Virus record (IMG/VR): IMGVR_UViG_3300030104_002675
Coordinates: 1-37,460 of that record
From: a virus
DNA: 37,460 nucleotides
Strand: one strand, 5' to 3'
The notes below the pieces were generated by a model. The model was not told the origin of the DNA. It saw only the letters and a list, made by a program, of their open reading frames with translations, and searched no databases. A program made the translations under genes and the position numbers. Shown piece by piece: positions 18,501 through 37,460 of this stretch (within the stretch, counting starts at the first letter, position 1; every line of letters starts with the position of its first letter).

Positions 18501-20971
18501 CTGTAGATACGCTTAATGTAGGCGCGCAGTATGATAGTGATAAGCTAGAGCGATTTTATTACAAATTTTCATCAACCAACGACACTATTGGCGATATAGC
18601 TGTTCAAGATTTGCAAGTAAGAATAAGCGTATTTATGGCATCTGCGCTCGGTACTAATAAAATGTGGAGGTTGAGCGAAACAGTTATAACATCGTGTGAA
18701 GTAAAGAAAATTTACATGCTTCTTGATCAAGATTACGACACTGGTGATTTTGAGCAAATTATTGATATGGAGACTCAAACAGTAACTACAACTGTTCCTA
18801 TTTATGAAACCGTAATTACCACAACACCTGGTGTTCCGTTAGAAACAATTGACCCTTGGGCTGAGGTTATATTTCCAACTACTGTAGAAGGTTATCAGCA
18901 GATACAGAGTATTGATTATAGTGGTATAGCTTCAACTTTTGGGTTTCAGAACTTAGCTGAAGAAATATCTTATATTGATGCAGATGGTAATGAACAAACA
19001 TACCTGAGTGGACAAGGAAATGGAACTACATCTTATAATCAATACCCTGGGCAAGCTGTAGAGAGCGAAAATTACACTCAAGCTATTGAGAGTGTTGATA
19101 TTGGGCTATTAAGCTTCGCTACAGGGCCTGTACCGTTAATAATAAATTTAGATGAAACTAAATTACCTTTAGATCATACCAAGTGGTATTTATTAGAAAT
19201 AGAGCTTCCAGATGAAATAGATTTTAGCACTATTGGAGATTTTGAACTACCTTTTATACAACTTCTTGATTCAAGTAATCAACCTCAATTGGTTTTTTAT
19301 AACAGTAATAACAATATTCAAATAGGAGACTTCATCGACCATAGTACGCTGAGATTGGAACTTATAGATAATAAGCTAACGGCTCTATTTAACCCAGGAA
19401 CGGGTGATGTAAGTGGAATAGAAAAAATAAGCTTAAGTACGTTTAGCTATCCAAACGTATCAATACCAGGAGCAGGAACAGTACCATCGCTTATGGAAAG
19501 TATAAGATTTACAGACGTAAGCGTTGATTGGTACGGTGGTCATGCGAATAATTGGAATATAAGTCCAGAATTGCGTCACATAGAAAGAGCTGCTATTCCT
19601 GGAACAACGACTATACCTCAATCACATCCTAGCGTTTATTACCAAAACGGACAGATAAACTTCAATTCTAGTTTTGAAAATGTGATTGCTTCGACGTTCG
19701 CAAACGAAAGAAGTTTTACGCAACAGCTACCAGACTTACCAGAAGTAAATGATCATTACGAATTAGTTGTACAATACGGTAATGACGCTATATCTGGTAA
19801 TTTCAATACTAGCGAAATCGCAGGGATAACTATCAATGTTGGTGATTATGAATTCACAAATGCGCTTGGTGGAGATCTAATTCAAGTTGCTGATGATGAT
19901 TCGTTTAGTATTAGCTATTATTATGGTCCTATAAACTTTGATGGTGGACCTGCAGAAATTAAATTTACAGCTGATAATCTGTTTGTAGGTAGTGTAAAAA
20001 GCGTATCTTTAAAAGATATGACTAATTATTTTGAACCAGGAAGTGCAGGATCGTGGATAATAGACGGGTTTGATCAAGGGTTAAATAATTTTATTTCTTG
20101 GTATCAAGGTAGTATAAGCTTTAACGACGCACTGCAAGATCATAGAATATACCAACAAATAGGTGAATTACCAGTAGGACAGAGTTTTAAATTATCTTTT
20201 AATCTTGCGTATACTACCACGTCAATTGCTAATAGTGGTACAGTAAAGGTTTCGTATATTAATGAAGCAGGTTTAGTAGCATTCGAGCGCGTGTTTGGTT
20301 TCCTAGATCAAGGACTTGTTAATCATCAATTTCTCGTAGGCGAAGGATCGGGTGAACCATTAGGTTATTCTAATACTTTTATAATAGAAGCCTCAGGATC
20401 TAATCCTTTAGTAGCTATCATAGATAACCTCAAACTTAGACGTGTTATAACTGACGAAGAGTTTGGTACTCATCCGCTAACTATTAGTTACAATGAAGAC
20501 GTTAAAGGTTGGGTTAGCTTTAAGTCATTTGTACCAGAAAGTGGATTAAGTCTTTCTAGCCAATATTTCACTACTAGTCAAGGTAAATTATGGCAACACT
20601 ATACTAACGAAAATAGAAACGACTTTTACGGTCAACAAGCTGAATCACGTATATCTGTTGTACTTAATAATTCTCCTTCAACAGTTAAAAATTTCAATAC
20701 AGTAAATTACGAAGGGTCTCAAGCTAAGATATTAAATTTCGCAACAGTGGGCGAAAGTACTACTATGCGACCTTATAACGCCGGCGGTTCTATTGATGGC
20801 TGGGAGGTTACGTCAATATTAACAAACCTAGAGGAAGGTCAAGTTCCGGAGCTTATAGAAAAAGAGAATAAATGGTTTAACTATATAAGAGGCTTAAATT
20901 CACTAGATCAAGACACATCTAGTTTTAATTTTCAGGGAATCGGTGTTTTATCTCACACAACAAATGATTAA
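12506..20971 (+). CDS. Giant tail/hub protein with propeller-like core and jelly-roll inserts, 2821 aa
   Basis: The N-terminus (FIQGKMNKDLDERLIPNGQ, then RDALNIEV) is a signature I recall from tail hub or stabilisation proteins of crAss-like and marine flavobacterial phages. Residues about 1500-1640 hold a second conserved part: PTYGSIQKLFSRNTDLVAL, then AYFTDKQRGAVLRLSMDGLT and a closing YDAFNKQYNLTI, compatible with beta-propeller blades. The last 170 residues (LTISYNEDVKGWVSFKSF, then LSSQYFTTSQGKLWQH) look like the end of the same backbone. Between them, about 1648-2650, lie several beta-rich modules: IINDDFSEGV (1647), a domain around 1840-2080, a Thr/Val linker near 2091-2110, WNISPELRHIERAA (2348) and WIIDGFDQGLNNF (2519). 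These resemble carbohydrate-binding folds. I infer a tail-tip/receptor-contact role. Confidence 0.65.
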   Translation: MPEIKNTFIQGKMNKDLDERLIPNGQYRDALNIEVTSADEGNSGTARNILGNTRVDALVGGDNYTCVGSIANELTNKLYWFIHRPGADAVLEYDKVQGTNKIILYDHDNTVPLAENNPLYTAFYGENYDYSKILNFTGKQITGINIVDDFLFWSDGDDEPKKINISRSYHDGYTTLNQAASATGNPFAFVPRLHVNGELTDTILHKDHITVIKKKPTSAPTIKMNLSTSGETSIFEKVFPRFSCRYKYSDGEYSAFGPFTDVAFSAKYPELVNASNSYSTDEPYNKAMVNSISSVELYDFIPSDIPKDVVQVDILYKQEDSNVVYSITNIKNTDSEWTHQGLNENSSHKGKYVITSENIHAALPENQLLRAWDAVPKSALGQEIIGNRLVYANYKQGYNFDETFPTPDINAEYIQRATNFDNGGVKSIKSLRKYQLGYVLGDKYGRETPVFTSDDAGINLDWFSQSLSGNASLSNMFKVSLSNQTPDWAYYYKFYVKSPSAEYYNLLMDKCYFPFTHTEFENKDDHIYVSFPSSDRNKIMEDDYLISKKIYDGSDSQVFQENKYKILDISNEAPDAVKYVFFNLGTAANNDNAFTGTSVVGFGGEDSVLFAGPGHMTSAGLRIDQQTDIIHIHKTSWLSSTFNGAPLVDYNEETETQVENYKGDIYMSWSSGNLSSNRYKVSSIRVSNNNTYILRLTETISEKDARIAALNDTIETLNLDDLGPESSNTQVTMDSGLTLKFERRQKRSEEDFSGKFFVKIKHNAYLTSSSGSSTDSSGSVFPVAQAGIQWLVGVHNSADASEGSGIVNSASASIESTLTTETAVAGIANLTGFATEPSDWDVIKSHIGNRFFIDDMNFIACNVHEDSYAKESGPAWRGLNPPSAYKPFKWMPIDGDESSQSGLDTGYYWRIDSPELSEGGLGFYGSLKSFAPSTTSATFSASPFLTRIINSFEGIVTTTLAHSGQGSFSGGAPNSGERRFNNNTLYCHPNGSTQGLDNTYGPIDSTEKHFIHISFLAPGVNLIDEMSADDLADVTIKGKDSIARKLEGIWGGGAFTKVPSAPVEVGGSYSVNYFGDIGVDGHVIEFEGNYNESGNDQSGTPGPGIGQGYDLDYGLRHSNQWKPQYSDSGTNEELNSFVERIKTPGQKFIFKGDDSETVYRIESVTEKHMYNHTPWRMRWLWDDTNSEWVAGGDSVEEAASAWADFTDVNLTPSNNSGDEGYSTAATALADAITDFGAANNRRVTYIIELDKDPVDHYDPRTDSVESIDATIDDVNGQIQFVSDIVPSQIDAIFSHPTIWETEPQQLADLNIYHEASNNIPIKLTSTTNELFAPVGSKVDIVSYGENYDVDVDFAEGAIVDTESSYISLWNSEDIFEVNPPLPENNYTGSVFRFSKDDGSYVEAKIIDQLGPGVQFKVNTQVDVTRDVGLSWFNCFSFGDGIESNRVRDGYNKMQISNGARVSATLEQPFIEEHRTNGLIYSGIYNSNSGVNNLNQFIAAEKITKDLNPTYGSIQKLFSRNTDLVALCEDRVLKILANKDALFNADGNPQLVATPNVLGQSVPFSGDFGISTHPESFAHESFRAYFTDKQRGAVLRLSMDGLTPISDAGMRDWFRDNLVDEANFIGSYDAFNKQYNLTIKSKPILGSIINDDFSEGVAAVESFNNTEYIDNGAFTQGLSFSGVMQLEDLDLVERNKTINPDLFVDVTIRNHPEILAESLVASVTTTEEVDTGETATSSEDIDFGDPDFEINYIDDPDAPIIMPDSLDGFPEGQAPVMFGFDENLNSSESPFDDVGSTATTFNIKRYNNTEDTNQVPAVLEEYNGYGGDDTNLGFGVGASGGGISGHTNTTRWTNPTTIFHQNESGFAAGGVPSTLDDGNNDDWHAINKGITFRGSPTDEGSGEVPWGYIQFPSNGFIEGGTNQLTDSIINSEPAARNNTIFKGEEIEVTVNYRSNHLGTESDNFIRVELFDGNSPLDSSYFAGGTTFSNENIEGWTNSQSVDTLNVGAQYDSDKLERFYYKFSSTNDTIGDIAVQDLQVRISVFMASALGTNKMWRLSETVITSCEVKKIYMLLDQDYDTGDFEQIIDMETQTVTTTVPIYETVITTTPGVPLETIDPWAEVIFPTTVEGYQQIQSIDYSGIASTFGFQNLAEEISYIDADGNEQTYLSGQGNGTTSYNQYPGQAVESENYTQAIESVDIGLLSFATGPVPLIINLDETKLPLDHTKWYLLEIELPDEIDFSTIGDFELPFIQLLDSSNQPQLVFYNSNNNIQIGDFIDHSTLRLELIDNKLTALFNPGTGDVSGIEKISLSTFSYPNVSIPGAGTVPSLMESIRFTDVSVDWYGGHANNWNISPELRHIERAAIPGTTTIPQSHPSVYYQNGQINFNSSFENVIASTFANERSFTQQLPDLPEVNDHYELVVQYGNDAISGNFNTSEIAGITINVGDYEFTNALGGDLIQVADDDSFSISYYYGPINFDGGPAEIKFTADNLFVGSVKSVSLKDMTNYFEPGSAGSWIIDGFDQGLNNFISWYQGSISFNDALQDHRIYQQIGELPVGQSFKLSFNLAYTTTSIANSGTVKVSYINEAGLVAFERVFGFLDQGLVNHQFLVGEGSGEPLGYSNTFIIEASGSNPLVAIIDNLKLRRVITDEEFGTHPLTISYNEDVKGWVSFKSFVPESGLSLSSQYFTTSQGKLWQHYTNENRNDFYGQQAESRISVVLNNSPSTVKNFNTVNYEGSQAKILNFATVGESTTMRPYNAGGSIDGWEVTSILTNLEEGQVPELIEKENKWFNYIRGLNSLDQDTSSFNFQGIGVLSHTTND

Positions 20972-22989: not shown

Positions 22990-23670
22990 ATGGGAAAAGC
23001 AGCACAAAGACGAAATGAAGAAGCGATAACGCAAGCTACTGATGCTCAGTTAGCGGACGCTAAAGCTATGCTCGCTGATCAACGCACTAGACTTGATGAT
23101 CAAAAACAAAGATATAGAGAATTTGAGATAACAAATCCATTCGCAGGAATGGAAAATCCTTATGAAGATCTAACCGTGAGCCAAGAAGCAGCTAGGTTTC
23201 AGGCAGAGCAAGGTAGACAGCAAAGAGCTAATATCATGGCTAATTTACAAGGTGCTGCCGGGGCATCTGGTATTGCTGGTTTAGCTCAGTCTCTAGCCGG
23301 TCAAGGCGTTATGCAAGCTAGACAAATATCGACAGATATAGCGCAACAAGAGGTTCAAAATAGAATGGCCGCAGCGCAGGGTCAAATGGCTGTTGATCAA
23401 CTTGTAAGACAAGGCGCAGGAGCAGTTCAACAAGCTCAATTCGGTAGAGAATCCACATTATACGCTGCTGAGCTTGGTGAGATGGCTGGGACAAGATCAG
23501 CTTTATCAGGCGCTCAAGCAAATCAAATGGCAGGATTTAGCGCTATATCACAAATGAATGCTGCTCGTATGGGTGTGTTTGGAGATATTATAGGGGGTGT
23601 AGCCGGAGGTATAGCTACAGGTGGTATGAGTAATTTAGCTAAAGGATTAAGTTTCTTTGGAAAAGAATAA
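22990..23670 (+). CDS. Probable internal (ejection) virion protein, 226 aa
   Basis: The protein is Ala/Gln/Gly-rich and largely helical. The N-terminus is a charged coiled coil (residues about 8-50). Then come NPFAGMENPYEDLTV and QEAARFQAEQGRQQRANIM, a helix-rich GAAGASGIAGLAQSLAGQG, and a C-terminal Gly-rich hydrophobic segment (IIGGVAGGIATGGM, about 200-214) that could enter a membrane. The pattern ENP-[FY]-ED-L-T-V followed by Ala/Gln-rich repeats is one I associate with internal virion proteins of podoviruses, similar in role to T7 gp14. Those proteins are released from the particle and form part of the DNA conduit across the cell envelope. The gene begins one base after the upstream stop and ends in three consecutive TAA codons. 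Confidence 0.6.
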   Translation: MGKAAQRRNEEAITQATDAQLADAKAMLADQRTRLDDQKQRYREFEITNPFAGMENPYEDLTVSQEAARFQAEQGRQQRANIMANLQGAAGASGIAGLAQSLAGQGVMQARQISTDIAQQEVQNRMAAAQGQMAVDQLVRQGAGAVQQAQFGRESTLYAAELGEMAGTRSALSGAQANQMAGFSAISQMNAARMGVFGDIIGGVAGGIATGGMSNLAKGLSFFGKE

Positions 23671-23682
23671 TAATAAAGTAAA

Positions 23683-25941
23683 ATGGCAGTAGATTTAAGA
23701 GGACAAGCAGACGCAACAATAGCAAGTGCAGCAGCAAGAGCAGGCGCGGCACTAGCGGGACCAGACTATAGTACGTCATTTCAAAATATAGCCACTGGAT
23801 ACCAATTAGGTATGCAGAAATTGGGTGCCGGTTTAGCAGCGGTATCTCAAGTAGGCGCCGCAGCGGCCACTGATTTAGTAGAAAAAGTAAAAGAAGCGAA
23901 AACCACTTATACTGAAAGCGGGGCGTGGGGATCTGTTATGGGTAACTTTAAGGGTCTTCTAAAAGAAGGTTTTGATATATTTAAGGCTGAAAGAGGAGAA
24001 GATAGAGACGTACAGAAACAAGAGTTTAAAGATAAATGGAACACTAGCGTAGGTAGTCTTAAAAGTATGATTGATAAAACTTTTATGGTTGAGATGGTAC
24101 TAGAGGAAGGTGAATATAATAAAGCATATCTTGAAGAAAACCCTGATAAAGCAGCTCAGTTCTCTATAATTAGATCAACCAAAAAAAATCCAGTAGACGC
24201 ACCAGGACTTCCATATGACGGTTGTTATTCAGACATGGAAGTTGAGGATGGAGCGTGGGTTAAGAAGTATTACGGTCCAGATGGAGCACCAATATCGTCA
24301 TTTGGTCCTGATGGAACACCTATATATGTTGATAAGCGAGACATGCGTCCTGACGCGTCACAAATTGTTGAAGATAAGACTCAAATATTGCGCGAACCAA
24401 GCGGCGAGTATAAAGCAACTGGAGAAGGTAAAGTGGGCTTCAACAACGAGGTCATAAACGAAACTTTGATGAATCCTTTGAAAGAAGGTAGTTTAGACAG
24501 ATTGGCTAAAGAAGGATACACCATATACGTACCTGGCAAGGACGGTATCCCTACTGATGAAATTAAATACCAAAGCAAAGGCCCAGGCGCTATAGGGTCA
24601 GCTCAGATCATGCTCAATAGGATGGGTTATACGGGTGTTGATGGTAAGCCGTTAAAAGTAGATAATTTACTTTACAAATACGACAAAGACGGAAAAAGAA
24701 TTAAATCTAATACTGAGCACGCTTTTGAGCAATTTAAAAAAGATCAAGAAGCGAGAGAGCAAGGTGCTGGTGATTTATTTTCAAGTATACAAACGTATGC
24801 AGATGAAGAAAGAACTCAAATGAGTGTAAACGGTAATGATATATCAAAGCTTATAGTTAGGAAAAATCCAGAAACACAAGCTGGTATTCAAGAATTACAA
24901 CTAGCTGCTATGGAATCAGGTTCGGTAGGTTTGGATTTCAAATCCAATGAGTATAGAAATGCGATGAAGGATATAGTTGATGATAAAGATAAGTTTTCTG
25001 ATATGGCATATACTCCTATTGGAAATGAAGAATATAGCTTTGCACAACTGTTAACGCAACCAAATAAGATGACGAAAGAGATGTTTAATCAAGTTGTATC
25101 AATGGGTAAAAATCTTGCTGGTATTGATCCAGGTGAAGATGGGATTATTGATGAAAACGATTTCCAAGAAGAGGATGCTGCTAATTTAGCTATTCTAAGG
25201 AAAGAAATGTTGAATTACAGCAACCCCCAAGCGCGAGAAATATTTTTTGATTATCTTGTTGATGAAGGAGCTAGTAGACACAAGGAACAATTAGACATAT
25301 ATAACAGGAAATTAAATGCGGGAAATATTACTGATGATGGCGGCGACGGTTTAATAACTTCAAAAAAGAACGTGACTCTCTTTACAGTTAAGGGCGAAGA
25401 TGGTACTACTTATGTTCGTGAGAGTGATATGAACAACAACGCTACAGCGTTCCATCAAATTGAAACTGGGGATTACGCTTCGGATTCTTTCACAGGGTGG
25501 AACGGCGAAACATACTCATTTGAAAATGATCAATGGTATGTTGATGACGTAGATGATGGTGGAGACCCAATGAAAAAACCTATACCAAGGCAAGAAGTAA
25601 TTGATCAATTGAAATTCAGCTCACAACCAACTATAATGGATTATCTAGGTACTTCTTTAGAAGGACAAGACATTGGATTTATGGAGGGTAGTAACGATAT
25701 TTTCTTCCAAAGTCAAACAGGTAAAGGAGCAGCAAATATGGGAGACCGTGATAACTGGAAAAAAGATGATAACGGGTATTGGCAGTTCAAGCAAGAAGAC
25801 GGTAGTTATAAAACAATGATATGGAAAAACAATAAGGGACAGTGGATAGGTACGAAGATAAAGGGTATGCCGGAATTAGCTGCTTCTAAAAAATTAGCAG
25901 AATTCTTAGAGGGATCAATTGACAATACATACGCAGACTAA
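23683..25941 (+). CDS. Probable internal virion protein with possible PG-binding module, 752 aa
   Basis: The N-terminus is Ala-rich and helical (SAAARAGAALAGPDYSTSF, then YQLGMQKLGAGLAAVSQVG), as in ejected virion proteins. Residues about 303-355 (AIGSAQIMLNRMGYTGVDG, then LKVDNLLYK, then HAFEQFKKD) follow the outline of a PG_binding_1 module: helix with LNxxGY, a short G-VDG turn, and a second helix with F. Two loops look like calcium sites: DPGEDGIIDEND at 482-493 and DDGGDGLI at 551-558. The C-terminal part is aromatic-rich and beta-like (FTGWNGETYSFENDQWYVDD; DNGYWQFKQEDGSYKTM). The gene sits between another ejection-type gene and the giant one, with the stop one base before the next ATG. 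I infer a role in crossing the peptidoglycan; nothing here shows catalysis. Confidence 0.55.
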   Translation: MAVDLRGQADATIASAAARAGAALAGPDYSTSFQNIATGYQLGMQKLGAGLAAVSQVGAAAATDLVEKVKEAKTTYTESGAWGSVMGNFKGLLKEGFDIFKAERGEDRDVQKQEFKDKWNTSVGSLKSMIDKTFMVEMVLEEGEYNKAYLEENPDKAAQFSIIRSTKKNPVDAPGLPYDGCYSDMEVEDGAWVKKYYGPDGAPISSFGPDGTPIYVDKRDMRPDASQIVEDKTQILREPSGEYKATGEGKVGFNNEVINETLMNPLKEGSLDRLAKEGYTIYVPGKDGIPTDEIKYQSKGPGAIGSAQIMLNRMGYTGVDGKPLKVDNLLYKYDKDGKRIKSNTEHAFEQFKKDQEAREQGAGDLFSSIQTYADEERTQMSVNGNDISKLIVRKNPETQAGIQELQLAAMESGSVGLDFKSNEYRNAMKDIVDDKDKFSDMAYTPIGNEEYSFAQLLTQPNKMTKEMFNQVVSMGKNLAGIDPGEDGIIDENDFQEEDAANLAILRKEMLNYSNPQAREIFFDYLVDEGASRHKEQLDIYNRKLNAGNITDDGGDGLITSKKNVTLFTVKGEDGTTYVRESDMNNNATAFHQIETGDYASDSFTGWNGETYSFENDQWYVDDVDDGGDPMKKPIPRQEVIDQLKFSSQPTIMDYLGTSLEGQDIGFMEGSNDIFFQSQTGKGAANMGDRDNWKKDDNGYWQFKQEDGSYKTMIWKNNKGQWIGTKIKGMPELAASKKLAEFLEGSIDNTYAD

Positions 25942-25942
25942 C

Positions 25943-28900
25943 ATGGCAGATAAAGAAGTTTACGAATCTGGAGGAAAGCAATATAGAGTAGGGCCTAATA
26001 GTCTGGAAAAGTTCAAGAAGGACCATCCTAATGCAACTAAAGTAGAAGCTCCGAAAAAAGGTTTTATAGAAAAAGGATTTGATGCTACAGCTGGGGCTGT
26101 TACTAGTCTCTTTGGTGGTGGAACTGAAAAAGCGGTTAAAACTGGCTCAACTGATAATGTTGGAAATCAATCTGTTTATGAAGTTGATGGTAAACAGTAT
26201 AATGTGGGGCCTAATAGTTTGGAGAAATTTCAACGAGCTAATCCTAACGCTGTTAAAATAAGTGGTGATGATCCGGGTGTTTCGGGAGGTACAGTGGCAA
26301 AACGCGTGGCTCAAAGTGCAATGTTTATGAATCCCTTCACGCGCACGGCGAGTGTCGCTTGGATGGCGTATGACGCATGGGAGGATCATGAAACGGCGGA
26401 TATGAAGCATAAACAGGAAGGGGCGCATATACTTGAGAATTTTAGTTATGCAGATGACAACGGGGTTCCAAAGAAAGTCAACCACTTAGACGCTAACGCG
26501 TTCGTTGAAGCTACAAGTGGTGAAGGAATATTCGGTATGCGTAAAGAAGGAAACGCTGTTGAGCTGCTTAATAGCTTTTATAAAGAAGCTAACCCAGATT
26601 TAAATATAAGATTCGTTGAATCTAAAAGAGGTAAAGATGCTGTAGAACTTTTATTTGGAGATCAAAAAGAAGGGCAGGGAAAGGAGTTTGATTTAGATAG
26701 TGATTTTGGAATTGATTTTAGTCAAGGGTGGCAAGAATTTATAGGTAAAGGAGATGAAGCATTCACGAACGAAGATGTTTTTGAGAATATAAAACGTACT
26801 ATAGATAACGCTATAAACCCTGAACTTGAAGCTGCTTCAATAGATGCGGTTTTAGATAACATCGATATACATAATCTTTTTCTATCAAATAATCCTGATA
26901 ACAAAGTTCAGTTTCTAAATAATTTAGACGAAAAAAGCGGAGCGCTATTTCAAGACCCAGATCAAGCTACATTGGGTGATCCATTTGCAACAACCACAAG
27001 TAGGTTTATAGTAGATCCTACGGATACTAAGGGTTTTGGAGAATCGGTACTTTGGGGAACTAGTTTTGGTCAACACGATTCTAGAAAGGTTAATATGACT
27101 GGATCTCTTACTTTTGAAGATGAAAACGGAGAGGTTCATAAAGTCCCATATAAACACATTTGGGATAATAGAGAAGTATTCCAACAAGCTGCTCAGCAAA
27201 GAAGTATGGTAGATCACAGCGAGAGGCTTATTATAGAGCATGGCGAAGGAAAATACTCATATGATCCAAATAATATATTAACGGGTGTAAAATCAGAAGG
27301 CGTATACGCGGTTGAAGAGGGCTGGATGAATAATATTCTTAGCGGCGAGGACAAGTGGTTTGATGAAACATTAACCGTATCGAATCGTATTAAAGCAGAA
27401 AAAGAAGGTGATAATCGCGAAGATATTATCAAAGCAGACACTGAACGTTTAGAAAGCTTACTTAAAGAAAGAGGTATTAAACCTTTGTATGATAAAGATG
27501 GGTTTTTAGATATTGAGAAATTAAACGAAGAAATACAAGCTACAGAAACTAAAGAAGAGACAGAGGCAAATTTATTAGCTGACGATCATCCGGCTTCAGT
27601 ATTAGCTGATATGAGACATCAGGAGATCGTTAAACTGATGGCGCAGTCAGAGATTGCGTTATCGGCTAGAGATGACGTAGAGGGTAGCATAAATTGGTTT
27701 ATAAGGAAAGCAGGCGGGGTCTTAGGTCCTAATTTATTTGAACCATTAGGCGCCGCTATGGACGCTATCGCTGGGGATAACAAGCCGAAGGTTCGTGGAG
27801 AAGATATCCGTACCGACATGTTGTATTTAGAAAACATTGTTAATAGCGGTAGTTTGAAAGACCTTGATAGACTTCCAGAACTTGCAGGTGATTCACCAGC
27901 AGCTGTGCAATTTAATGAAACTGTAAAGAATTTAAGAACTATATCGAAAGCTTTAGCTATAAATAGTGACCCTACTAAAATGAAAAGGGATAACCTAATT
28001 GGAGAAATAGTAGACGATCTAAGTTATTCATTCACTGGCGAAAGAATTATAAGTGATCACACTAGAAATATGGAGGTTGAGGCCTTCTCTTACATGCTAG
28101 AAGACGCAGGATATTTTATACCTGGGATAAACGCTAAAGAAGGAGACTATGAAAGACAGGATATTACCCCTGGATCTCCAGGAGAATGGACGTTTAGCGG
28201 GGCGTTAACTAATGCTCGTAGAGCAACAGAAGCTACGTCTCAGGTAATTACAGACATGGGTCCTCTTTTATTGGAACTTTATCTTTTCAAAAAAGCATCG
28301 CCTAGGTTCATGACAACTATGACAAAAGGAGTTGAAAGAACAGCCGCAATAGCTGCTAGACGAGCAAAGAGATTAGCAGGTAAGTTGAATAAAAACTGGG
28401 GCCGCTCAACTACGCTACCAAAAAGTTATAAGTGGTTAACTAGAAACGTTGTAGCACCAGGTGTTGCTACGACGGCAGAGTGGGCAATAGCGGAATCTAT
28501 CGGTGAGCATACTATGGGTTGGAAAGCTCAGACTATCGATTGGGAGACTGGTGAAACAAGATTTACTTTCCCTTTTGCAATGGGTGCTAGTGGAAAACTA
28601 TTCTCACAATTGCAAGCTAATGTTTGGAAAAACCTAAAAGTTAAATCACCAAAATTAGCCGCGAGATTAGAAAACGTTAGTACTACTAGTCTTACCTCTA
28701 GTAAATATAAAAAGGTTCTTCAACCAGTGGCTAACCTTGTTGGTAAATCCGTAGGTCAAGGTGCAACAGCGACTGCGCTTTTAACCGTATCTGAAGGAGC
28801 GCAGTTAATGATAGGTAGTTTAATTGAAGACGGAAATCTAGGAGAAGCTGAAGAGTGGAAAGAGTTATTTGATCCTAAGCATCTAATGACTACTTGGGCT

Positions 28901-31900
28901 GCTATGAGTGTTTTAAGTGGTCAAAAGTTACTACCTGAGTTTAGAAGTTATGTTCGAGAGAGTATCCTATCGCTGGATATGAATACTAGGGCTTCTGCAG
29001 AAGCCTCAGAAACTCTAGGTTTAACACATGAATCAAATAGAAGAAAGGATGGAGGGTATCGTGACTCTAGAGTAGATAGATCTAGTGAATCAAGACAAAA
29101 GAAAATTGATAAGCAAGCTAATAAAGATAAAAATAATGTAGATAAAGAAACAAGGAAACAGCTTGATAAAGTAAACAAAAGCAAAGAACTAACTGATACG
29201 CAGAAGAGAAGGGAGAGAAATAAAATAGGTAAAGAAGGCGCGAAGAAGAAGAGAAAAATCGATGCTGGCGCAAAAAAGAGTAAAGGCGTTGTTGCTGATG
29301 CTGCTAAGGCGCTTAAGTTGCATAACGATGTTATAGCTACCCAAAAGTCCGCAAGAGCAGATAGGAAGTGGGAGGAATATCTAATGAAGGAAACACGTAA
29401 GTTTGACTTAACTAAGAAAAGAGACTTAACGAACGAAGAGAGAGAAGAATATGCTGAATTAGATCGTGGTGATATCGAGAAAATGCTGTATATGAAGGGG
29501 CATACTCCTGGTAGCGCGGGGTATGAATACTATATGCAAGAACACTCGGTTCTTAAACATTTTACAGCACTTGCTAATGGAGCTCGACTTCAAAGCGGAA
29601 AAAATATAACTTTATACGGTAAAAACAATCCTGCGGCTAGAAGAAAATTCATTCAAGATGGTGTAAACGCCTGGAAAAATCAATATAGAATAGAATCTCT
29701 TAAAAAAGAGATGAAAGAGAATCCAGGTGACACTGCTACTAAAATGTTTAATAAAAATAGACTTGAAACTTTAGAAAAGCAAGGAAAGGAATTTCAAGAG
29801 CAAGTTGACGCAAACTTTAAGAACTTTGAAAAATGGGTTGAAAAGAACATAGATCTCGAGATTGCCGCCGCTAAAATAATGGGTGAAAAAATAGGTGCTA
29901 AAGGAGAGTGGGATGTTTTAGATAATAACTCATATAGAGACAAGATCGAGAAACTAGGATTGGGGAAAGAGGCTATGGAATCAGAGGGCGTGTTTATTGA
30001 AGAAACCGGAGAGATTATTCTCAATAGAGATAAAATGAAAGAGCTTGTGTCTTTAGGCACGGCTACCCACGAGCTATTACACAGAGTTCTAAAAGAATCA
30101 CTAAAAGTAAAAAACAAGAATGGAGAAAGAGTTATATCTCCTGAAGGTAAGAAGTTGATAGAAGATTTTTTAGATCGACTTCCTAAAAAAGATAGAGCTG
30201 TACTAGAGGAAAGAATAGAAGAAAACTATAAATACCAAGAGTTTACTCAAGAAAAATGGGATCAGCTAAGCGCTAAGGAAAAAGCGAGATATAAGAAGCC
30301 TGAAGGCGTAGGTGGCCAATTAAGAGCTGAAGTTAAGGAAGAGTACTATTACGAAGAATATCTTACGGCTTTTGGCGATGCTCTAAAAGAAGGTTTAATA
30401 AAGTTTGATAAATCTTCCATTCCATCAGAAATTGGAGATCCTTTTTATGATATACTTAAAGAAGTCGCTCCTAATTTAGGTAAAGGAAGACAGGGTGGTA
30501 CAAGATCTTTTGAATCTGGTAAAGAACTTCATGAATTCCTTACAACGTTCCACGCTTATGGTGAAGTTATAAAATCTAAAATAGAAGCTGGGGAAGTTAT
30601 ACCTGAAGGTGTAAGCTATAAAACTAAAGCAGATATTAAAGTTAAAAAGAAGTCTAAAAAGCCTAAGAAGAAACCTAAACCCAAGTCGCCAAGAGAAGTT
30701 GAAACGGAAAATAGAAGGCAACTATCAGAAGCTGTGTTTGGTAACGCGGATGTTATAGGTGAGCTATCTGGTATGCATGGTGTAAGTAATAGAAGAGGTG
30801 GGGCAGAGTTGCAAGAACTTGTTGATTATATAGAGACCCAAGTAAAAAACTACAACACTCTAAATAAACTTGGGACGGAGAGAACAGTTGATCAAGTTAT
30901 TGAATCTGTCTTTGAGCATTTTGGCATTGGCCGTGGTGGTTCAAAAGGGAAATATGCGCTATCTAGAGTTGCGATGAATAACGCCGTACAATTAAGAGGA
31001 TACATTAAAGGTAGAGCGGCTGAAACAACCCCGAAAGCAGAAGTAAAAGCTAAAACAGCTAAACTATCTAAAAGAAAAAGAATTACAAAAGCAGTTAAGG
31101 TTGAGCAACCGTCAGATATTATAAATAAGTTCGCGGAAGGTATAAAAACACAAGCAGAGTGGAAAGAGAGTGAGGGTGTGCAACAAGCTGTTAAAGCTCT
31201 TAAACCTGGTGGCGTAATATATAATCGTATTGCAGATAAAAGCAAAGGGTTAAGTAAAGAAAAAATAGCTGAAACTGTAGAAGCGTTTAGAGACAGGTTA
31301 AAGAACTTTGATCCTCAGGCAAAGCGAAAGACAGATTCTAAAGAACCTATCACGCTTAATGAGTTTGTAAATGCTAATATTGGCTTTGGTAAACTAGTTG
31401 CTGCTAAAGAGCTATTTAAGCAGTCTGAACAAACGTCTAGAACTCAGAGAATAGACGAAACAACATCTGAAGGTAAACAAGCGTTTGAGCTTGAAGCAGA
31501 AAGAGATGCTAGTTTAGAAGCGTTTGAAGAAGCAGATATGTCTATGATGGCTCAAATAAGGAGGGCTAAATTAGAAGCAGAAGGTGAGCTTGAAGCAGAT
31601 GGACCTAGTTCACCGTGGAAAAAGTTTGTATTTAAAAATAATGCTTTAGCAAATCCAAGCGTGAGTAGCGCGGAACTTACAAATAAAACTGTTGGAACTG
31701 TACAAACCGCTCTTAAAACATCTGGATCTGTAGATGCTGTTAAGAAAGGTAATCCTAAAGTTTTCTTAAGTAACTTAGAAAGTACGTTTGGAAATAGCTT
31801 AACTAACACGGTTAGAGATACCTTTGGAAAAGGAAACAAGTATAAAGAATTTTATAAAAGCGAGGAAACGTTTAAAATGATAAAAACTCTTCCTGTGAGC

Positions 31901-34900
31901 GCACTTGTGAGAGCCGGCATGGAGTTCGCTTATGAGCCAGTTATAGATCCTTCAACTGGCAAGCAAAAGCGAATGACTGTAGACGAAATGTCAAAAGCGG
32001 GATACCCTACTCAAAAGTTTTCTGAACAAGCTAAAGAAATTAAAAACGATAAGAGTTTAACAAAGGCTGAAAGAAATAAAAAACTAAAGGAATTAGATAA
32101 AACTGGATCTGGTCCTGCTGTATGGGAACTTAAAGACTTTACTCAACAAGATTATATTAATTGGGCCGAAGCGAAGGACATCAATCCAAAAACAAATAAA
32201 CCGTGGGGTTCAGGTACTAAGGGTAATCGTAAAACCGCTACAGCTAAAATGGTCGGTGTTGAACTAGCTAAAGATGCTACTCCATCCGTATTGGCAAAGC
32301 CTTTTCAGCAAGCGTTTGATCTTAATGGTAATGCTAAGATGAAAGATGGTAAACCAGTAAAGATTGATTTATTAAAGGAGCTAAATACCATGGAAAAAGT
32401 TGAGTTAGCAGACACAGCTTTATCCAACAGAATCAATGAGATTATACGAAGAGACCCTACAGCTAAATTCTCTTTTAAGAAGAAGGTTGATGCATTTGAA
32501 AAGGAGCAGTTAGGTTTAGGATTTACGGAGCGTATAGAAAACTTAAATAAGCCAGAAAACGCAGATATTAAAAAATACTACGACAAAGAATCTCAAAGAT
32601 TGTTCAGCACTGACTACGAAACCCAAGCTCGGAAAATGGAGATGAAGATGTGGGAAGAGCAGACAATGTATGATCTTGAGTACGCTCAAGCTGAAAAGAT
32701 TCTTAGTGGAGAACAATTAAAAGAACTGACTGAATTAGCTGATAACTCTCGAACTGAATCAGATTTTAAGAAAGTAATAAAAAGATTCAATAAAGAAAAC
32801 CCAGGCCTTAATATACCTATTGATACTCAGAAGTTCGCTTTTGGAACCAAAGGAAAAGAGGCTAGAGAAAACTTCTTTAAGCGTCAAGGGGATATATACG
32901 ACTTACTTCCAGCTGAATTCTTTAATAACCCTAAGCTTGTCACTGCATTATTTAAAACAGGTGGATTAGGTAGCCTTATTACTAGAATGAGGTTTAAAGC
33001 CGATGGTACTCCATACAAACCTGGTGTTAAGCAGAAGTTAGCACCTAGAGGTAAAAAAGGAGATCCGAAGTATATGCTTGACAACTTTGGTAGGCCGCTT
33101 ACGGGTAACGCTAAGATAGAAGTTCCTATGATAAAGGACGCTAAAGGTAATCTTAGGCCACTAACTGACGCTATGAATATAGCTCAAATAGGAGCTTTTA
33201 AAGCTGGTAAAAAAGGTACTGGAAAACGAAAGGGTGAAATTGTTCAAGATGGTATGGTGCAATTCCACGAAAAAAATAAAAATCTCTCTAAAAAAGAATA
33301 TCAAAAAAAGCTATTCGAATGGGGTAGAGAAAATTTAGGAGCTAAGGACTTTACTTATGAACAGACTGAACAAGCCAATAAGTATGTGAGAGATACGTTG
33401 GCTAAAGCATTAGTGGAATACGCTTATGCTCCTAAAATGAAAGTTATTAAAGCCGGTAAGGAAACGATGGTTAAGATGACGAAGGCAGAGTTTGCAGAAA
33501 GAATAAATGTTGTAACTAAGTTTCTTCAGATACAAACTAATATAGGTGAAGGTTTGATTAAAGGTTTAAATACTATTAGATATTTAACTCTTGGAAAACC
33601 TACTCCTTCTAAGTATAGCCCTACTGGCTATCACGCAGAGCACGCATACTTTAATCTCGCTCATACAGCTTCGTTTGTTCACCTTTTAAGTAAACATAGG
33701 AAGTCAGGTAGTGTTAAAGACTTTATGAAGGATTATGAAGGTATTTCAGCTAACATGGAGCAATTTGTTATCCAAGAGCAAACAAGGCAAGGTAATGAAG
33801 GAAGACAAGCTGATGGAACTATATATGGAAACACTGAGTTCTTCAAAGGAGGTAACGTATTCTCTAAATTAAATGTATTAAGTTCGAATCCTAGAATTGC
33901 GTTTGAAATTGTAGATCTTAGAACGGGTAAAACCATTGGGGAAACAATGAGTAAAAACCTTCAGATTGGTGAAGCTGAAAGTATAGCTTTAGCTAGAGCG
34001 TTAGGTAAGAATCTTAATCTAGTTACGAAAGGAGAGAAAAAGTTCGACAAAGTTGACGAAGCTAATAAACGTCAATTAACAGGTGTGTTAAGTAAAAAGA
34101 CTGTTAAAAAAATGACTTTTGAAGAGACGACCGATGCTATTAAAATGGTTAATAAGGCTCTTGCTAATGGTAGAAAAACTGATGGTAAGAAAAAAGGTAT
34201 GTCTACTTTTGACTTTGATGAAACATTGATTATTAAAGGAGAGAATTTTGTTACTGCTACTAAAGGTAAAAATACAATTAAAATTAGTTCTGAGAACTTT
34301 CCATTAGAAGGTCCTAAATTAGAAGCTCAAGGCTACAAGTTTGATTTTAAGGATTTTGTTAATGTTAAAGGTGGGGTTGAAGGTCCTTTATTTAAGAAGT
34401 TGCAGAAACAAATCGATAAATACGGAAGCGAGAACGTTTTTGTACTTACTGCTAGAATGCAAGAATCCGCACCAGCAATACACGCTTGGTTAAAGTCAAA
34501 GGGCGTAGAACTACCTATTAAGAATATTACTGGTCTAGGTAAATCAACGGGTGAGGCGAAAGGATTGTGGATGCTAGAAAAGTTTGCTGAAGGATATAAC
34601 GATATGTATTTCGTTGATGACGCAATGTCTAATGTTAAAGCTGTTAAAAGAGTATTGGACCAATTAGATGTTAAATCTGACGTACAGCAAGTAAGATATA
34701 GTATAAAGAAAAATCTAAATGCTGATGTCAATAAGATGATGGAGCACTCGCTTGGTATTGACGCAGGTAAAACGTTCTCCAAAGCTGAGGGTAGAATGAG
34801 AGGTAAGGATGCTAAGCGTAGAAAGCTATTCTTACCAGATACGGCTGCTGATCTTGATCTGTTATTAGAACCACTATATGGTAAGGGTAAACAAGGAATA

Positions 34901-36757
34901 AAAAACAAAGAATGGTTTGACAAAAACTTTTATAAGCCATTCGAGCGTGGAGTCAATGATTTTAATTCAGCTAAGCAAAAACTCACTAACGAGTACATGA
35001 CGCTTAGGAAAGGAAATAAGGATATAGTTAAAAACCTTGGTAAAGAAGTTGAAGGAACAAGCTTTACGCATGATCAAGCTATGAGAGTTTATTTGTGGAA
35101 TAAAGCGGGGTTTAAAATCCCTGATTTAGCAGAGACCACTAAACAACGATTAATTGATTACGTAGAAAACAACGCTAAGTATAAAGCTTACGCGGAAAGC
35201 TTTAACGAAATGCGTGGAGGTTTGAAAGAACCATCAGCAGAATGGTGGTCTGAAACTATTGCAACAGAGATAAGCGATATTAATCGTGGCGTAGGAAGAA
35301 AAGAGTTTTTAGCAGATTTCATAGAATTGCGTAAGGAAATTTTTTCTGAAGAAAATCTAAACAAAATGGAATCTAAGCTAGGTAAAAACTGGCGAGATAC
35401 TATTGAGGATATGTTTGACCGTATGGAAACCGGTAGAAGTAGATCTGAAAACATAAGTGGCGTAACCGCGGAGCTTGTTAATTACTTCAACGGATCTGTA
35501 GGCACTATCATGAACTTTAATACCCGATCTGGTTTATTACAATTAATATCTAGTGTTAACTTTGTAAATAGCTCGTTTAATAACCCGCTTAAAGCTGCGC
35601 AAGCGTTTGCAAACCAAAAGCAGTATTGGAAAGACTTCATGACAATACTAAACTCAGACATGCTAAAGCAAAGACGAGATGGGCTTGAGATCAATGTTAC
35701 TGAAGCGGAGATTGCTTCGGCTGCCGCGGGTAGCAAAAACCCAGCTAAAGCAGTTATTGCAAAAATATTAAAAGCTGGTTATCTACCAACTAAAATTGCG
35801 GATAGCGTCGCTATAGCTACAGGTGGAGCAATGTATTATAGAAACGCAGTTAATAACTATATGCGTCAAGGCATGAGCAGAGCTAAGGCAGAGAAAAAAG
35901 CTTTTATAGATTTTCAAGCGCTAGCTGAACGAACTCAACAGTCTAGTAGACCTGATTTAATATCAAAGCAACAAACTACTCTTGGGGGTAGATTAATACT
36001 ACCGTTTGCTAACACGCCTTTGCAGATGAATAGGTTAGCTATGAAGGAAATGCTTGATATATCTAAAGGTAGATATAAAAATAAAGCAGACCTTGCTGAT
36101 AAGTTAGGTAAAATAGGTTATTACGGCTTTATACAAACAGCTATATTCGCTGGTTTACAAAGCGCTGCTTTCGCTGTATTTGCGAATAGTGATGACGACG
36201 ACTTAAAAGCTAAGAAGAAAACCCAGATGCTTGATACAATTATGGATTCAACTCTTAGGGGTATGGGTATAGCGGGTTCTGTGCTTAACGGTATTATTAA
36301 ATCTATTAGAGAATTTTATGTTCAAAAAGAAAAAGGTTATGGGGCTGATTATAGCGAAGTAGCAGAGGATTTACTAAGTATATCCCCGCCAGTAGGTTCT
36401 AAGTTTAGAATGCTTGACGCAGCTGGTAATACTTATAAATATAATAAAAAACAAATAGAAGAGGAAGGTGTCAAGTTTAGCTTGGATAGTCCAGGCCTTC
36501 AAGCCACTACCCAAGCGACTGAAGCTATTACTAACGTACCAGTTAATCGAGTGTTCAAGAAGTTAAATAACTTAAAGAACGCGGCGGATAATGATTACGC
36601 TGTGTGGCAAAGAGTTCTTATGAGTCTTGGTTGGTCAAATTGGGATGTAGATCCAGATTTGGCAAAACAAAAAAGTAAAGACTCAAAGAAAGACGATGCA
36701 AGCAAAAAACAAAAAAAGAAAAAAGGAAAAGTAAAACATCCTAAATCATATTATTAA
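25943..36757 (+). CDS. Giant multidomain ejection/polyvalent protein, 3604 aa
   Basis: The start is ATG 25943; an upstream in-frame TTG (25919) would overlap the preceding gene by 23 bases and is less likely. Residues 6-35 and 78-107 are a tandem repeat (GPNSLEKF core). A Lys-rich charged coil lies at about 1043-1119. A zincin-type site THELLH places the ligands at H1376 and H1380, with catalytic E1377; E1471/E1472 (YYEEYLTAF) is a candidate third ligand. A Lys/Pro linker lies at about 1567-1586. A His-rich segment (2564-2586) is followed by a HAD domain with D2757 and D2759 (FDFDET), T2836 (LTAR) and D2892/D2893 (YFVDDAMSNV). The C-terminal block (about 3190-3420: TRSGLLQLISS, DSVAIATGGAMYYRNA, QQSSRPDLISKQQ, ANTPLQMNRLAM) is one I recall from giant proteins of marine phages. 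No RNA polymerase signature was seen. I infer that it is packaged and ejected. Confidence 0.65.
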   Translation: MADKEVYESGGKQYRVGPNSLEKFKKDHPNATKVEAPKKGFIEKGFDATAGAVTSLFGGGTEKAVKTGSTDNVGNQSVYEVDGKQYNVGPNSLEKFQRANPNAVKISGDDPGVSGGTVAKRVAQSAMFMNPFTRTASVAWMAYDAWEDHETADMKHKQEGAHILENFSYADDNGVPKKVNHLDANAFVEATSGEGIFGMRKEGNAVELLNSFYKEANPDLNIRFVESKRGKDAVELLFGDQKEGQGKEFDLDSDFGIDFSQGWQEFIGKGDEAFTNEDVFENIKRTIDNAINPELEAASIDAVLDNIDIHNLFLSNNPDNKVQFLNNLDEKSGALFQDPDQATLGDPFATTTSRFIVDPTDTKGFGESVLWGTSFGQHDSRKVNMTGSLTFEDENGEVHKVPYKHIWDNREVFQQAAQQRSMVDHSERLIIEHGEGKYSYDPNNILTGVKSEGVYAVEEGWMNNILSGEDKWFDETLTVSNRIKAEKEGDNREDIIKADTERLESLLKERGIKPLYDKDGFLDIEKLNEEIQATETKEETEANLLADDHPASVLADMRHQEIVKLMAQSEIALSARDDVEGSINWFIRKAGGVLGPNLFEPLGAAMDAIAGDNKPKVRGEDIRTDMLYLENIVNSGSLKDLDRLPELAGDSPAAVQFNETVKNLRTISKALAINSDPTKMKRDNLIGEIVDDLSYSFTGERIISDHTRNMEVEAFSYMLEDAGYFIPGINAKEGDYERQDITPGSPGEWTFSGALTNARRATEATSQVITDMGPLLLELYLFKKASPRFMTTMTKGVERTAAIAARRAKRLAGKLNKNWGRSTTLPKSYKWLTRNVVAPGVATTAEWAIAESIGEHTMGWKAQTIDWETGETRFTFPFAMGASGKLFSQLQANVWKNLKVKSPKLAARLENVSTTSLTSSKYKKVLQPVANLVGKSVGQGATATALLTVSEGAQLMIGSLIEDGNLGEAEEWKELFDPKHLMTTWAAMSVLSGQKLLPEFRSYVRESILSLDMNTRASAEASETLGLTHESNRRKDGGYRDSRVDRSSESRQKKIDKQANKDKNNVDKETRKQLDKVNKSKELTDTQKRRERNKIGKEGAKKKRKIDAGAKKSKGVVADAAKALKLHNDVIATQKSARADRKWEEYLMKETRKFDLTKKRDLTNEEREEYAELDRGDIEKMLYMKGHTPGSAGYEYYMQEHSVLKHFTALANGARLQSGKNITLYGKNNPAARRKFIQDGVNAWKNQYRIESLKKEMKENPGDTATKMFNKNRLETLEKQGKEFQEQVDANFKNFEKWVEKNIDLEIAAAKIMGEKIGAKGEWDVLDNNSYRDKIEKLGLGKEAMESEGVFIEETGEIILNRDKMKELVSLGTATHELLHRVLKESLKVKNKNGERVISPEGKKLIEDFLDRLPKKDRAVLEERIEENYKYQEFTQEKWDQLSAKEKARYKKPEGVGGQLRAEVKEEYYYEEYLTAFGDALKEGLIKFDKSSIPSEIGDPFYDILKEVAPNLGKGRQGGTRSFESGKELHEFLTTFHAYGEVIKSKIEAGEVIPEGVSYKTKADIKVKKKSKKPKKKPKPKSPREVETENRRQLSEAVFGNADVIGELSGMHGVSNRRGGAELQELVDYIETQVKNYNTLNKLGTERTVDQVIESVFEHFGIGRGGSKGKYALSRVAMNNAVQLRGYIKGRAAETTPKAEVKAKTAKLSKRKRITKAVKVEQPSDIINKFAEGIKTQAEWKESEGVQQAVKALKPGGVIYNRIADKSKGLSKEKIAETVEAFRDRLKNFDPQAKRKTDSKEPITLNEFVNANIGFGKLVAAKELFKQSEQTSRTQRIDETTSEGKQAFELEAERDASLEAFEEADMSMMAQIRRAKLEAEGELEADGPSSPWKKFVFKNNALANPSVSSAELTNKTVGTVQTALKTSGSVDAVKKGNPKVFLSNLESTFGNSLTNTVRDTFGKGNKYKEFYKSEETFKMIKTLPVSALVRAGMEFAYEPVIDPSTGKQKRMTVDEMSKAGYPTQKFSEQAKEIKNDKSLTKAERNKKLKELDKTGSGPAVWELKDFTQQDYINWAEAKDINPKTNKPWGSGTKGNRKTATAKMVGVELAKDATPSVLAKPFQQAFDLNGNAKMKDGKPVKIDLLKELNTMEKVELADTALSNRINEIIRRDPTAKFSFKKKVDAFEKEQLGLGFTERIENLNKPENADIKKYYDKESQRLFSTDYETQARKMEMKMWEEQTMYDLEYAQAEKILSGEQLKELTELADNSRTESDFKKVIKRFNKENPGLNIPIDTQKFAFGTKGKEARENFFKRQGDIYDLLPAEFFNNPKLVTALFKTGGLGSLITRMRFKADGTPYKPGVKQKLAPRGKKGDPKYMLDNFGRPLTGNAKIEVPMIKDAKGNLRPLTDAMNIAQIGAFKAGKKGTGKRKGEIVQDGMVQFHEKNKNLSKKEYQKKLFEWGRENLGAKDFTYEQTEQANKYVRDTLAKALVEYAYAPKMKVIKAGKETMVKMTKAEFAERINVVTKFLQIQTNIGEGLIKGLNTIRYLTLGKPTPSKYSPTGYHAEHAYFNLAHTASFVHLLSKHRKSGSVKDFMKDYEGISANMEQFVIQEQTRQGNEGRQADGTIYGNTEFFKGGNVFSKLNVLSSNPRIAFEIVDLRTGKTIGETMSKNLQIGEAESIALARALGKNLNLVTKGEKKFDKVDEANKRQLTGVLSKKTVKKMTFEETTDAIKMVNKALANGRKTDGKKKGMSTFDFDETLIIKGENFVTATKGKNTIKISSENFPLEGPKLEAQGYKFDFKDFVNVKGGVEGPLFKKLQKQIDKYGSENVFVLTARMQESAPAIHAWLKSKGVELPIKNITGLGKSTGEAKGLWMLEKFAEGYNDMYFVDDAMSNVKAVKRVLDQLDVKSDVQQVRYSIKKNLNADVNKMMEHSLGIDAGKTFSKAEGRMRGKDAKRRKLFLPDTAADLDLLLEPLYGKGKQGIKNKEWFDKNFYKPFERGVNDFNSAKQKLTNEYMTLRKGNKDIVKNLGKEVEGTSFTHDQAMRVYLWNKAGFKIPDLAETTKQRLIDYVENNAKYKAYAESFNEMRGGLKEPSAEWWSETIATEISDINRGVGRKEFLADFIELRKEIFSEENLNKMESKLGKNWRDTIEDMFDRMETGRSRSENISGVTAELVNYFNGSVGTIMNFNTRSGLLQLISSVNFVNSSFNNPLKAAQAFANQKQYWKDFMTILNSDMLKQRRDGLEINVTEAEIASAAAGSKNPAKAVIAKILKAGYLPTKIADSVAIATGGAMYYRNAVNNYMRQGMSRAKAEKKAFIDFQALAERTQQSSRPDLISKQQTTLGGRLILPFANTPLQMNRLAMKEMLDISKGRYKNKADLADKLGKIGYYGFIQTAIFAGLQSAAFAVFANSDDDDLKAKKKTQMLDTIMDSTLRGMGIAGSVLNGIIKSIREFYVQKEKGYGADYSEVAEDLLSISPPVGSKFRMLDAAGNTYKYNKKQIEEEGVKFSLDSPGLQATTQATEAITNVPVNRVFKKLNNLKNAADNDYAVWQRVLMSLGWSNWDVDPDLAKQKSKDSKKDDASKKQKKKKGKVKHPKSYY
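25958..26263 (+). repeat. Two ~30-residue repeat units at the N-terminus of the giant protein
   Basis: The units are 25958-26047 (residues 6-35) and 26174-26263 (residues 78-107). They share VYE, G-x-K-x-Q-Y-x-V, GPNSLEKF and a PNA-x-K ending. The DNA also matches well in the middle (GGGCCTAATAGT in both), so the duplication is visible at base level. The 42-residue spacer is Gly/Lys/Thr-rich. Such a short repeated module often docks the protein to a partner inside the particle; the partner here is unknown. Confidence 0.7.
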
Positions 36758-37460
36758 TGAGAAAAATAATTTTATTACTAACGCTTTTGTTTAGCGTAAC
36801 AGTTCAAGCTCAAGAACTTAAGAAAGCAATTAAGTTTTCTACGTTCTATGCAGCTGTTAACGGAGGTAACTCTGTGTCAGACAGAACTATATACTCTGTT
36901 ACTGATGGATTAACTCAGGAGATTATAGCAACGCCGTTTGACTACAGTCTATCCATGGGTGTACGTAAGATTGCTAGGTTTGGGTATGAGAATAGGGCTA
37001 ACGCTTTCTATGACGGTACCGAATCGTCTTACTCTGCTGACGCTAATATAGGTAAGCGCAATGGTGTAGAGTTTCTTGCAGAGGTTACATACGAAAGACA
37101 GCAAGGCCGGGAGTTCTTCAACCAACATCACTTTTTTCGTTATATCGGAGACAACTTCATGGCAAAGGTCGAGTACCTTGAAGACGGATTTGCTGACATT
37201 GAATACTTTGAAAGCTCACAGAGATATAGACTTAAGCTCGGTAAGAAGTTTTCTCTTCACGCAGGAATTGCTCAACGTATCTCAGAGCCCTATGGATATG
37301 ACCCACTCGCTGAATGGAAACTTGCAAACGGAGATATCCACTATACTTACCTCGCGCTTCAAGAAGGATATACTCACAACCTTACAACTGGAGAATATAT
37401 GGCTCCAGACGGAACAGTTGTCGCTTCAAACACTGAGGTCTGGGAAGCAGTCACTATCCC
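36757..37460 (+). CDS. Exported protein with signal peptide, probably outer-membrane type (3' truncated)
   Basis: The ATG at 36757 shares its A with the stop of the giant gene (TAATG). The first 20 residues (MRKIILLLTLLFSVTVQAQE) are a textbook Sec signal peptide with a cleavage site after QA. The mature part starts ELKKAIKFSTFYAAVNGGNS and contains alternating aromatic/charged strands (FDYSLSMGVRKIARFGYE, VEFLAEVTYERQQ, FMAKVEYLEDGFADIEYF), like an outer-membrane beta-barrel or periplasmic beta-protein. I recall very similar proteins from marine flavobacterial phage genomes, but not their function. A role in superinfection exclusion, envelope lysis or receptor masking would fit the export signal, without direct evidence. 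At least 234 residues are present, and the gene continues past the window. Confidence 0.75.
   Translation, partial: MRKIILLLTLLFSVTVQAQELKKAIKFSTFYAAVNGGNSVSDRTIYSVTDGLTQEIIATPFDYSLSMGVRKIARFGYENRANAFYDGTESSYSADANIGKRNGVEFLAEVTYERQQGREFFNQHHFFRYIGDNFMAKVEYLEDGFADIEYFESSQRYRLKLGKKFSLHAGIAQRISEPYGYDPLAEWKLANGDIHYTYLALQEGYTHNLTTGEYMAPDGTVVASNTEVWEAVTI

Follow-up and report, generated by a model that had tools for sequence, protein, structure and literature searches.

A candidate ejection protein from a marine podovirus related to crassviruses combines a predicted zincin, a HAD phosphatase-like domain and a constant C-terminus

Introduction

An open reading frame in the structural module of a marine podovirus related to crassviruses encodes a protein of 3604 residues, which we interpret, with a probability of about 0.68, as a large internal virion (ejection) protein of the polyvalent kind that is built of two pieces, a constant C-terminus and an exchangeable payload. 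The gene was found in IMG/VR record IMGVR_UViG_3300030104_002675, of which positions 1 to 37,460 were analysed (the window; all features described below lie on its plus strand). For many of the largest genes in phages of marine Bacteroidota no function is known, and the protein family presented here provides a handle on one of them: a probable delivery module can be distinguished from the payload, and a catalytic site outlives the replacement of nearly all surrounding sequence. Should ejection be confirmed, new injected phage proteins could be sought with the C-terminal module as a marker.

Genomic context and virion evidence

The giant reading frame (25943–36757) is open throughout and begins with ATG; an alternative start at a TTG codon (25919) is possible and would yield 3612 residues. 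The genes of the window encode, in this order, TerL, portal, capsid and ring-like proteins, the muzzle protein, several small proteins and a trio of 226 (22990–23670), 752 (23683–25941) and 3604 residues. The muzzle protein (12506–20971) matched the Pfam model crAss_MUZ_C (3.6e-7), and the crassvirus muzzle C-terminal domain was present in 10/10 longer relatives searched and in 0/14 control genomes. The source is a crassvirus-related marine podovirus and the window its structural module. The C-terminal part of the giant protein is encoded at 47 viral-contig loci of IMG/VR and at 18 loci in genome contigs, many of them metagenome-assembled genomes labelled Bacteroidota, while the nearest cultured TerL sequences belong to Elemovirus (Flavobacterium) and to phages of Cellulophaga, Tenacibaculum and Maribacter. 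Because of these labels, the TerL neighbours and the crassvirus muzzle domain, a Bacteroidota host is likely. The giant protein itself had no match among the INPHARED phages (tblastn, 1e-5), nor did its full length match any PHROG at 0.1. One 70-kb relative (G001, L048–L051) also codes for GroEL, ribonucleotide reductase, a sigma-70-like factor and Thr/Ser-rich repeat tail proteins.

The trio has the same order as gp14, gp15 and gp16 of phage T7 (196, 747 and 1318 residues), and its first two members are of similar size to their counterparts (PMC8954989). In the position of gp16, the giant protein shares with it a C-terminal hydrophobic helix and a basic tail (PMC8954989), but it is nearly three times longer, has no recognised peptidoglycan hydrolase domain and shows one hydrophobic stretch instead of two predicted membrane regions. 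A profile of the 226-residue protein matched gp099 of Cellulophaga phage phi40:1 (3e-12), a Gundel_1 protein (2e-14), phi46:3 and elemo, with E-values that refer to a small sequence set. According to the phi40:1 record, gp099, gp100 and gp101 are structural 'based on experimental MS/MS proteomics analysis'. Only gp099 is detectably homologous to a member of the window's trio; gp101, in the slot of the giant protein, contains no HExxH and has no detectable sequence similarity to the window's protein. The proteomics data are evidence for the gene position and not for the giant protein itself. By analogy, from the position, the homology of the 226-residue protein to gp099 and the slot of gp101, we infer that the giant protein is packaged and ejected.

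Giant 'structural proteins' are likewise encoded by Gundel_1 (gp074; Tenacibaculum), elemo (gp18) and MW202828 (both Flavobacterium), and phi38:1/phi40:1 (gp101; Cellulophaga). As in the window, they come after a short (~200–300 residues) and a mid-size (~450–650 residues) virion candidate, although in Gundel_1 the trio precedes TerL, unlike in the window. HExxH is found in the giants of Gundel_1, elemo and MW202828 (two), but not in phi40:1 gp101, and similarity of these giants to the window's protein is weak or absent, with no HAD motif set seen. In the first three (L066, L067 and L068; cultured or circular), HExxH stands beside a GNAT-like stretch (sub-threshold) or DUF3293 (1e-12), or occurs as two HEFGH sites. 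With filters off in a tiny database, our C-terminal profile hit Gundel_1 at 29 bits and our zincin profile hit elemo at 23 bits; neither hit survived default filtering, and both were rejected.

The zincin domain

The preliminary description of this DNA, made from its letters alone, had placed a zincin-type peptidase site at the HELLH of residues 1376–1380 (30068–30082), with an E-E-Y-L-x-A-F segment about 95 residues further on. Both elements were borne out. HExxH is expected by chance 0.03 times in the giant protein, given its size and composition, and 0.011 times on average in its relatives; of the 44 homologous ORFs with 2000 residues or more, 42 carry it, some of these 42 being near duplicates (e.g., L029/L032 and L007/L016). 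The two ORFs lacking the motif are L017, which is cut by the contig end, and L034, a true exception whose HAD domain is intact. Alignment A1 (37 sequences, the relatives being 10–31% identical to the window's protein) had only four invariant columns in the zincin region: H1376, E1377, H1380 and E1472. The two histidines are the putative zinc ligands and E1377 the putative general base, while E1472 (30356–30358), which lies 96 residues past H1376 and opens the following helix (E-E-Y-L-T-A-F), is proposed as the third ligand. Across the aligned sequences, this glutamate lies 51 to 96 residues from HExxH and often has an acidic residue at +7, as judged by eye.

The AlphaFold model of the zincin fragment (mean pLDDT 77.5, core about 90–96) placed a three-stranded sheet (strands 138–141, 164–167 and 172–176 of the fragment) ahead of the HExxH helix (188–202), and a second helix began at fragment residue E287, which is E1472. 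A Foldseek search of the model against the PDB, which was dominated by long helices, returned nothing at E ≤ 0.001. A BFVD search gave a single strong match, the uncultured virus protein A0A218ML07, which is uninformative on function. Profile–profile comparison of the region favoured M78 peptidases (P = 73%, E = 3e-5) over SprT (30%) and MPTase-PolyVal (17%); in controls, unrelated families scored 0.1% and known zincin families 46–90% against each other. The M78 alignment covered HExxH and the strand preceding it, and the Pfam model MPTase-PolyVal (PF18818) did not match the window's protein. Judged by motif, predicted topology and profile, the HELLH region is a zincin domain with its core at residues ~1300–1500 (29840–30442), as outlined by the alignment, the AlphaFold model and the profile comparison. 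Catalysis by this domain is presumed, and so are the substrates considered below. A Lys-rich linker (residues ~1551–1590, 30593–30712) lies behind it.

The HAD domain and its kinase insertions

Motifs and profiles located a HAD phosphatase-like domain at residues ~2748–2925 (34184–34717), with the motif order DxDx(T/V), T/S, K, DD. Its acidic residues and threonine are highly conserved (D2757 in 46/47 sequences, D2759 in 47/47, T2836 in 47/48, D2892 and D2893 in 47/48) and were correctly named in the preliminary description, which had looked for the lysine near 2867. This position is Asn in most relatives, and the motif lysine is K2873, which is invariant. The HAD-IA model matched 7 of 32 members (best 1e-4), and no curated HAD model exceeded its own cut-off for the window's protein (DUF2608: 20.2 bits, cut-off 22.6). 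Eighteen of the 32 members were matched by PHROG 415, a phage polynucleotide kinase family (best 3e-7), which aligned along the HAD stretch even in kinase-free members (about 1e-6 in L025 and L042) and weakly with the window's own HAD (0.033). Comparisons of the HAD profile with HisB- and NT5C-type phosphatases and with SAK, for which the set comprised one usable sequence, were not significant, and a Foldseek search of a second AlphaFold model against the PDB found nothing at E ≤ 0.001. The combination of zincin and HAD in one giant protein is well supported by motifs, model and profiles.

In three relatives (L013, L028 and L039), an AAA_33/zeta-type P-loop kinase is inserted into the HAD domain, starting 35–38 residues past motif I. 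A nearly identical kinase occurs in L038, placed after the zincin rather than inside the HAD, so that four relatives carry HAD and P-loop kinase in one chain; the window's protein has no kinase. A HAD phosphatase and a P-loop kinase form a usual pair for nucleic acid end healing, one example being the repair of RNA in jumbo phages (PMC7824862). The family shares with the polynucleotide kinase-phosphatase HAD proteins (PHROG 415; jumbo-phage PNK-HAD, PMC7824862) the HAD profile match and, in these four members, the kinase in the same chain, but the kinase is not N-terminal. The insertion in three relatives points to polynucleotide end repair, as far as can be read from sequence. We tentatively regard nucleic acid end repair, with the predicted phosphatase acting on 3′-phosphate ends, as the likeliest role of the domain, at slightly less than even odds.

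A constant C-terminus and a probably exchanged N-terminal part

Compared with L001, L002, L003, L016 and L043, the window's protein showed homology (60–62%) only from residues ~2443–2472 to the end, and before ~2443 no similarity was found except that L001 and L016 each gave a single short, weak match. The constant module consequently comprises residues ~2443–3604 (33269–36754), where homology to close relatives starts. Other pairs behaved alike: L030 is 87% and 86% identical to L037 and L041 in the C-terminal part with about one tenth of the N-terminal part covered, and L001 and L002 share 79% C-terminal identity with no N-terminal coverage. L004 is 43% identical to the window's protein over the whole length. 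Forced pairwise identities to the window in the N-terminal, zincin and middle parts were mostly 20–27%, near random. These similarity patterns suggest that the N-terminal ~2450 residues have been exchanged between close relatives. The union of a constant with an exchanged part, which tells most about the protein, was out of sight in the preliminary description. The adjacent 226-residue protein is 48–66% identical in several of the mosaic pairs and 28–43% in others; because this neighbour also varies between pairs, general divergence of ejection genes may account for part of the contrast between the gene ends. The zincin site survives replacement of the N-terminal part, L034 being a relative without it. 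Since mosaic ejection proteins have already been described in T7- and P22-like phages (PMC8954989), exchange itself is not new; what stands out is how far it goes and that one catalytic site outlasts it.

Within the constant module, a His-rich element (residues 2563–2586, 33629–33700) contains a near-invariant E2566-H2567 pair, which 90% or more of the relatives retain amid otherwise variable sequence and which possibly marks a further active site or metal site. Behind the HAD domain follows a conserved block that is predicted to be all-helical (residues 2930–3604, 34730–36754), with one hydrophobic helix (3396–3414) and a Lys-rich tail (3571–3600). The Lys-rich and His-rich stretches and the conserved helical block had all been seen in the preliminary description.

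The N-terminal part proper (residues 1–1299, 25943–29839) is variable and without recognised domain. A ~35-residue motif (GKQY-x-VGPNSLEKF...NPNA) occurs twice at its beginning (25955–26270). In a Pfam scan of the N-terminal and middle parts of the family, only the P-loop kinase of one relative was convincing. The motif D-A/S/T-x..A-S near residues 45–60 was found in 14/36 relatives versus 2.9 in shuffled sequences, and Y-x2-x-G-x-x-Y within the first ~130 residues in 9/36 versus 0.1; both patterns were picked post hoc, after inspection of the sequences, and offer no more than a hint of a signal for packaging or processing. Two ORFs replace the single giant gene in L004, with the break after the zincin, and in L007 and L040, with the break between the HAD and the C-terminal block.

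Comparison with polyvalent proteins and the N4 virion RNA polymerase

Among described proteins, the polyvalent proteins with a zincin-like MPTase (Iyer et al. 2017, PMC5512222) are similar in being giant multidomain phage proteins encoded beside late genes and in uniting a HExxH zincin and its downstream Glu with disparate enzymatic domains in one chain (PMC5512222). Such a combination near virion genes is what marks a protein as polyvalent, and the giant protein displays it with zincin and HAD behind the muzzle genes. Unlike these proteins, it matches no Pfam LPD or MPTase-PolyVal model, and it differs from those reported in 2017 by a constant C-terminus with an exchanged N-terminus. The word 'phosphatase' does not appear in the main text of that survey (PMC5512222). 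The polyvalent-protein idea put forward in the preliminary description is supported as an analogy. Its further statement that such proteins enter to disarm host functions exceeds the evidence, self-processing being as likely as an attack on host proteins, and so does the designation as an undescribed system, for zincins were the commonest domain among the polyvalent proteins described in 2017 (PMC5512222).

The N4 virion RNA polymerase gp50 (PMC12633501) resembles the giant protein in size (about 3500 residues), a HExxH domain and a large helical C-terminal part; the window's protein, by contrast, has no recognised polymerase but a HAD domain, and its zincin is roughly central, well away from the C-terminal part. 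The HExxH/C-terminal region of the N4 enzyme is reported to be required for encapsidation (PMC12633501, PMC5512222), and the available text of the structural study notes the HExxH motif but demonstrates no proteolysis by it (PMC12633501).

Proposed function and alternative explanations

As a two-piece ejection protein, the giant protein would use its constant C-terminal ~1150 residues (His-rich element, HAD and helical block) for packaging and for anchoring in the ejection machine, for which the C-terminal parts of T7 gp16 and the N4 polymerase serve as a model. The N-terminal ~2450 residues would form an exchangeable payload around the zincin peptidase. At infection, the protein would leave the virion together with the 226- and 752-residue proteins before the DNA; the zincin would cut after entry, and the HAD would work in the cytoplasm as a phosphatase whose likeliest targets are 3′-phosphate ends of nucleic acid. 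The domain pairing in this family suggests nucleic acid end repair at entry. For the zincin, self-cleavage that frees the payload from the C-terminal anchor is the option we favour, if at just under even odds; cleavage of host proteins is somewhat less probable, and a structural or inactive role appears doubtful.

Several other explanations were weighed against this two-piece ejection protein. The zincin could lack a host target and process its own chain while the virion is assembled, so that the giant protein is cut either inside the capsid or before it gets there. Self-processing has been proposed for P1 DdrB, as discussed by Iyer et al. (PMC5512222), and because the gene is naturally split in L004 (after the zincin) and in L007 and L040 (between HAD and C-terminal block), breaks at these places may be tolerated. 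We nevertheless hold processing at assembly to be unlikely: the N4 polymerase with its comparable HExxH domain is packaged unprocessed (PMC5512222), and the split in L007 is probably a sequencing frameshift error, because its near-identical relative L016 is intact. Alternatively, the N-terminal part may be an arms-race effector whose zincin cleaves host defence or envelope proteins, so that exchange follows changes of the host. N-termini swapped where C-termini are up to 87% identical, with only catalytic residues retained, would agree with this explanation, which we rate a little higher than processing at assembly and still rather improbable. No effector domain of a known kind turned up in the Pfam scan of the N-terminal parts, and exchange could equally track changes in receptor, envelope or ejection partners, because the 226- and 752-residue neighbours vary too.

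That the HExxH and HAD sites are inactive relics in a mere ejection conduit seems quite improbable. A virion protein confirmed by MS/MS in the same slot, phi40:1 gp101, does lack HExxH, but the catalytic residues are the most conserved ones of the zincin region and belong to the invariant ones of the HAD. We rate lowest the idea that the giant protein is an unrecognised virion RNA polymerase akin to N4 gp50 or to the cargo polymerases of crassviruses, with HExxH and HAD as accessory parts. The likeness to N4 in size, HExxH domain and helical C-terminal part (PMC12633501) and the slot, which is that of crassvirus cargo (PMC10172136), would fit; however, profiles of the N-terminal and middle parts matched no polymerase in PDB or Pfam, and exchange of this region between relatives would be odd for a polymerase, and this candidate was rejected. 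On inspection by eye, no RNA polymerase gene was seen in the 70-kb relative, and none of the other ORFs large enough for a polymerase in four longer relatives looked polymerase-like.

An extension of the two-piece ejection protein, which we regard as unlikely, is a scheme for diversifying injected effectors. The constant C-terminus, as the module for packaging and ejection, would carry a swappable N-terminal payload whose zincin is retargeted each time, an arrangement like that of polymorphic toxins turned end for end, and the HAD at the junction, sometimes with a kinase, would heal ends against nuclease damage at entry.

Directly behind the giant gene, the window contains a gene (36757–37458) whose product has a signal peptide and the look of an outer-membrane beta-barrel. 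Homologues of this gene follow the giant gene in two relatives as well (G001, 48222–49415; G010, 44281–45318), and such a phage-coded surface protein could contribute to superinfection exclusion.
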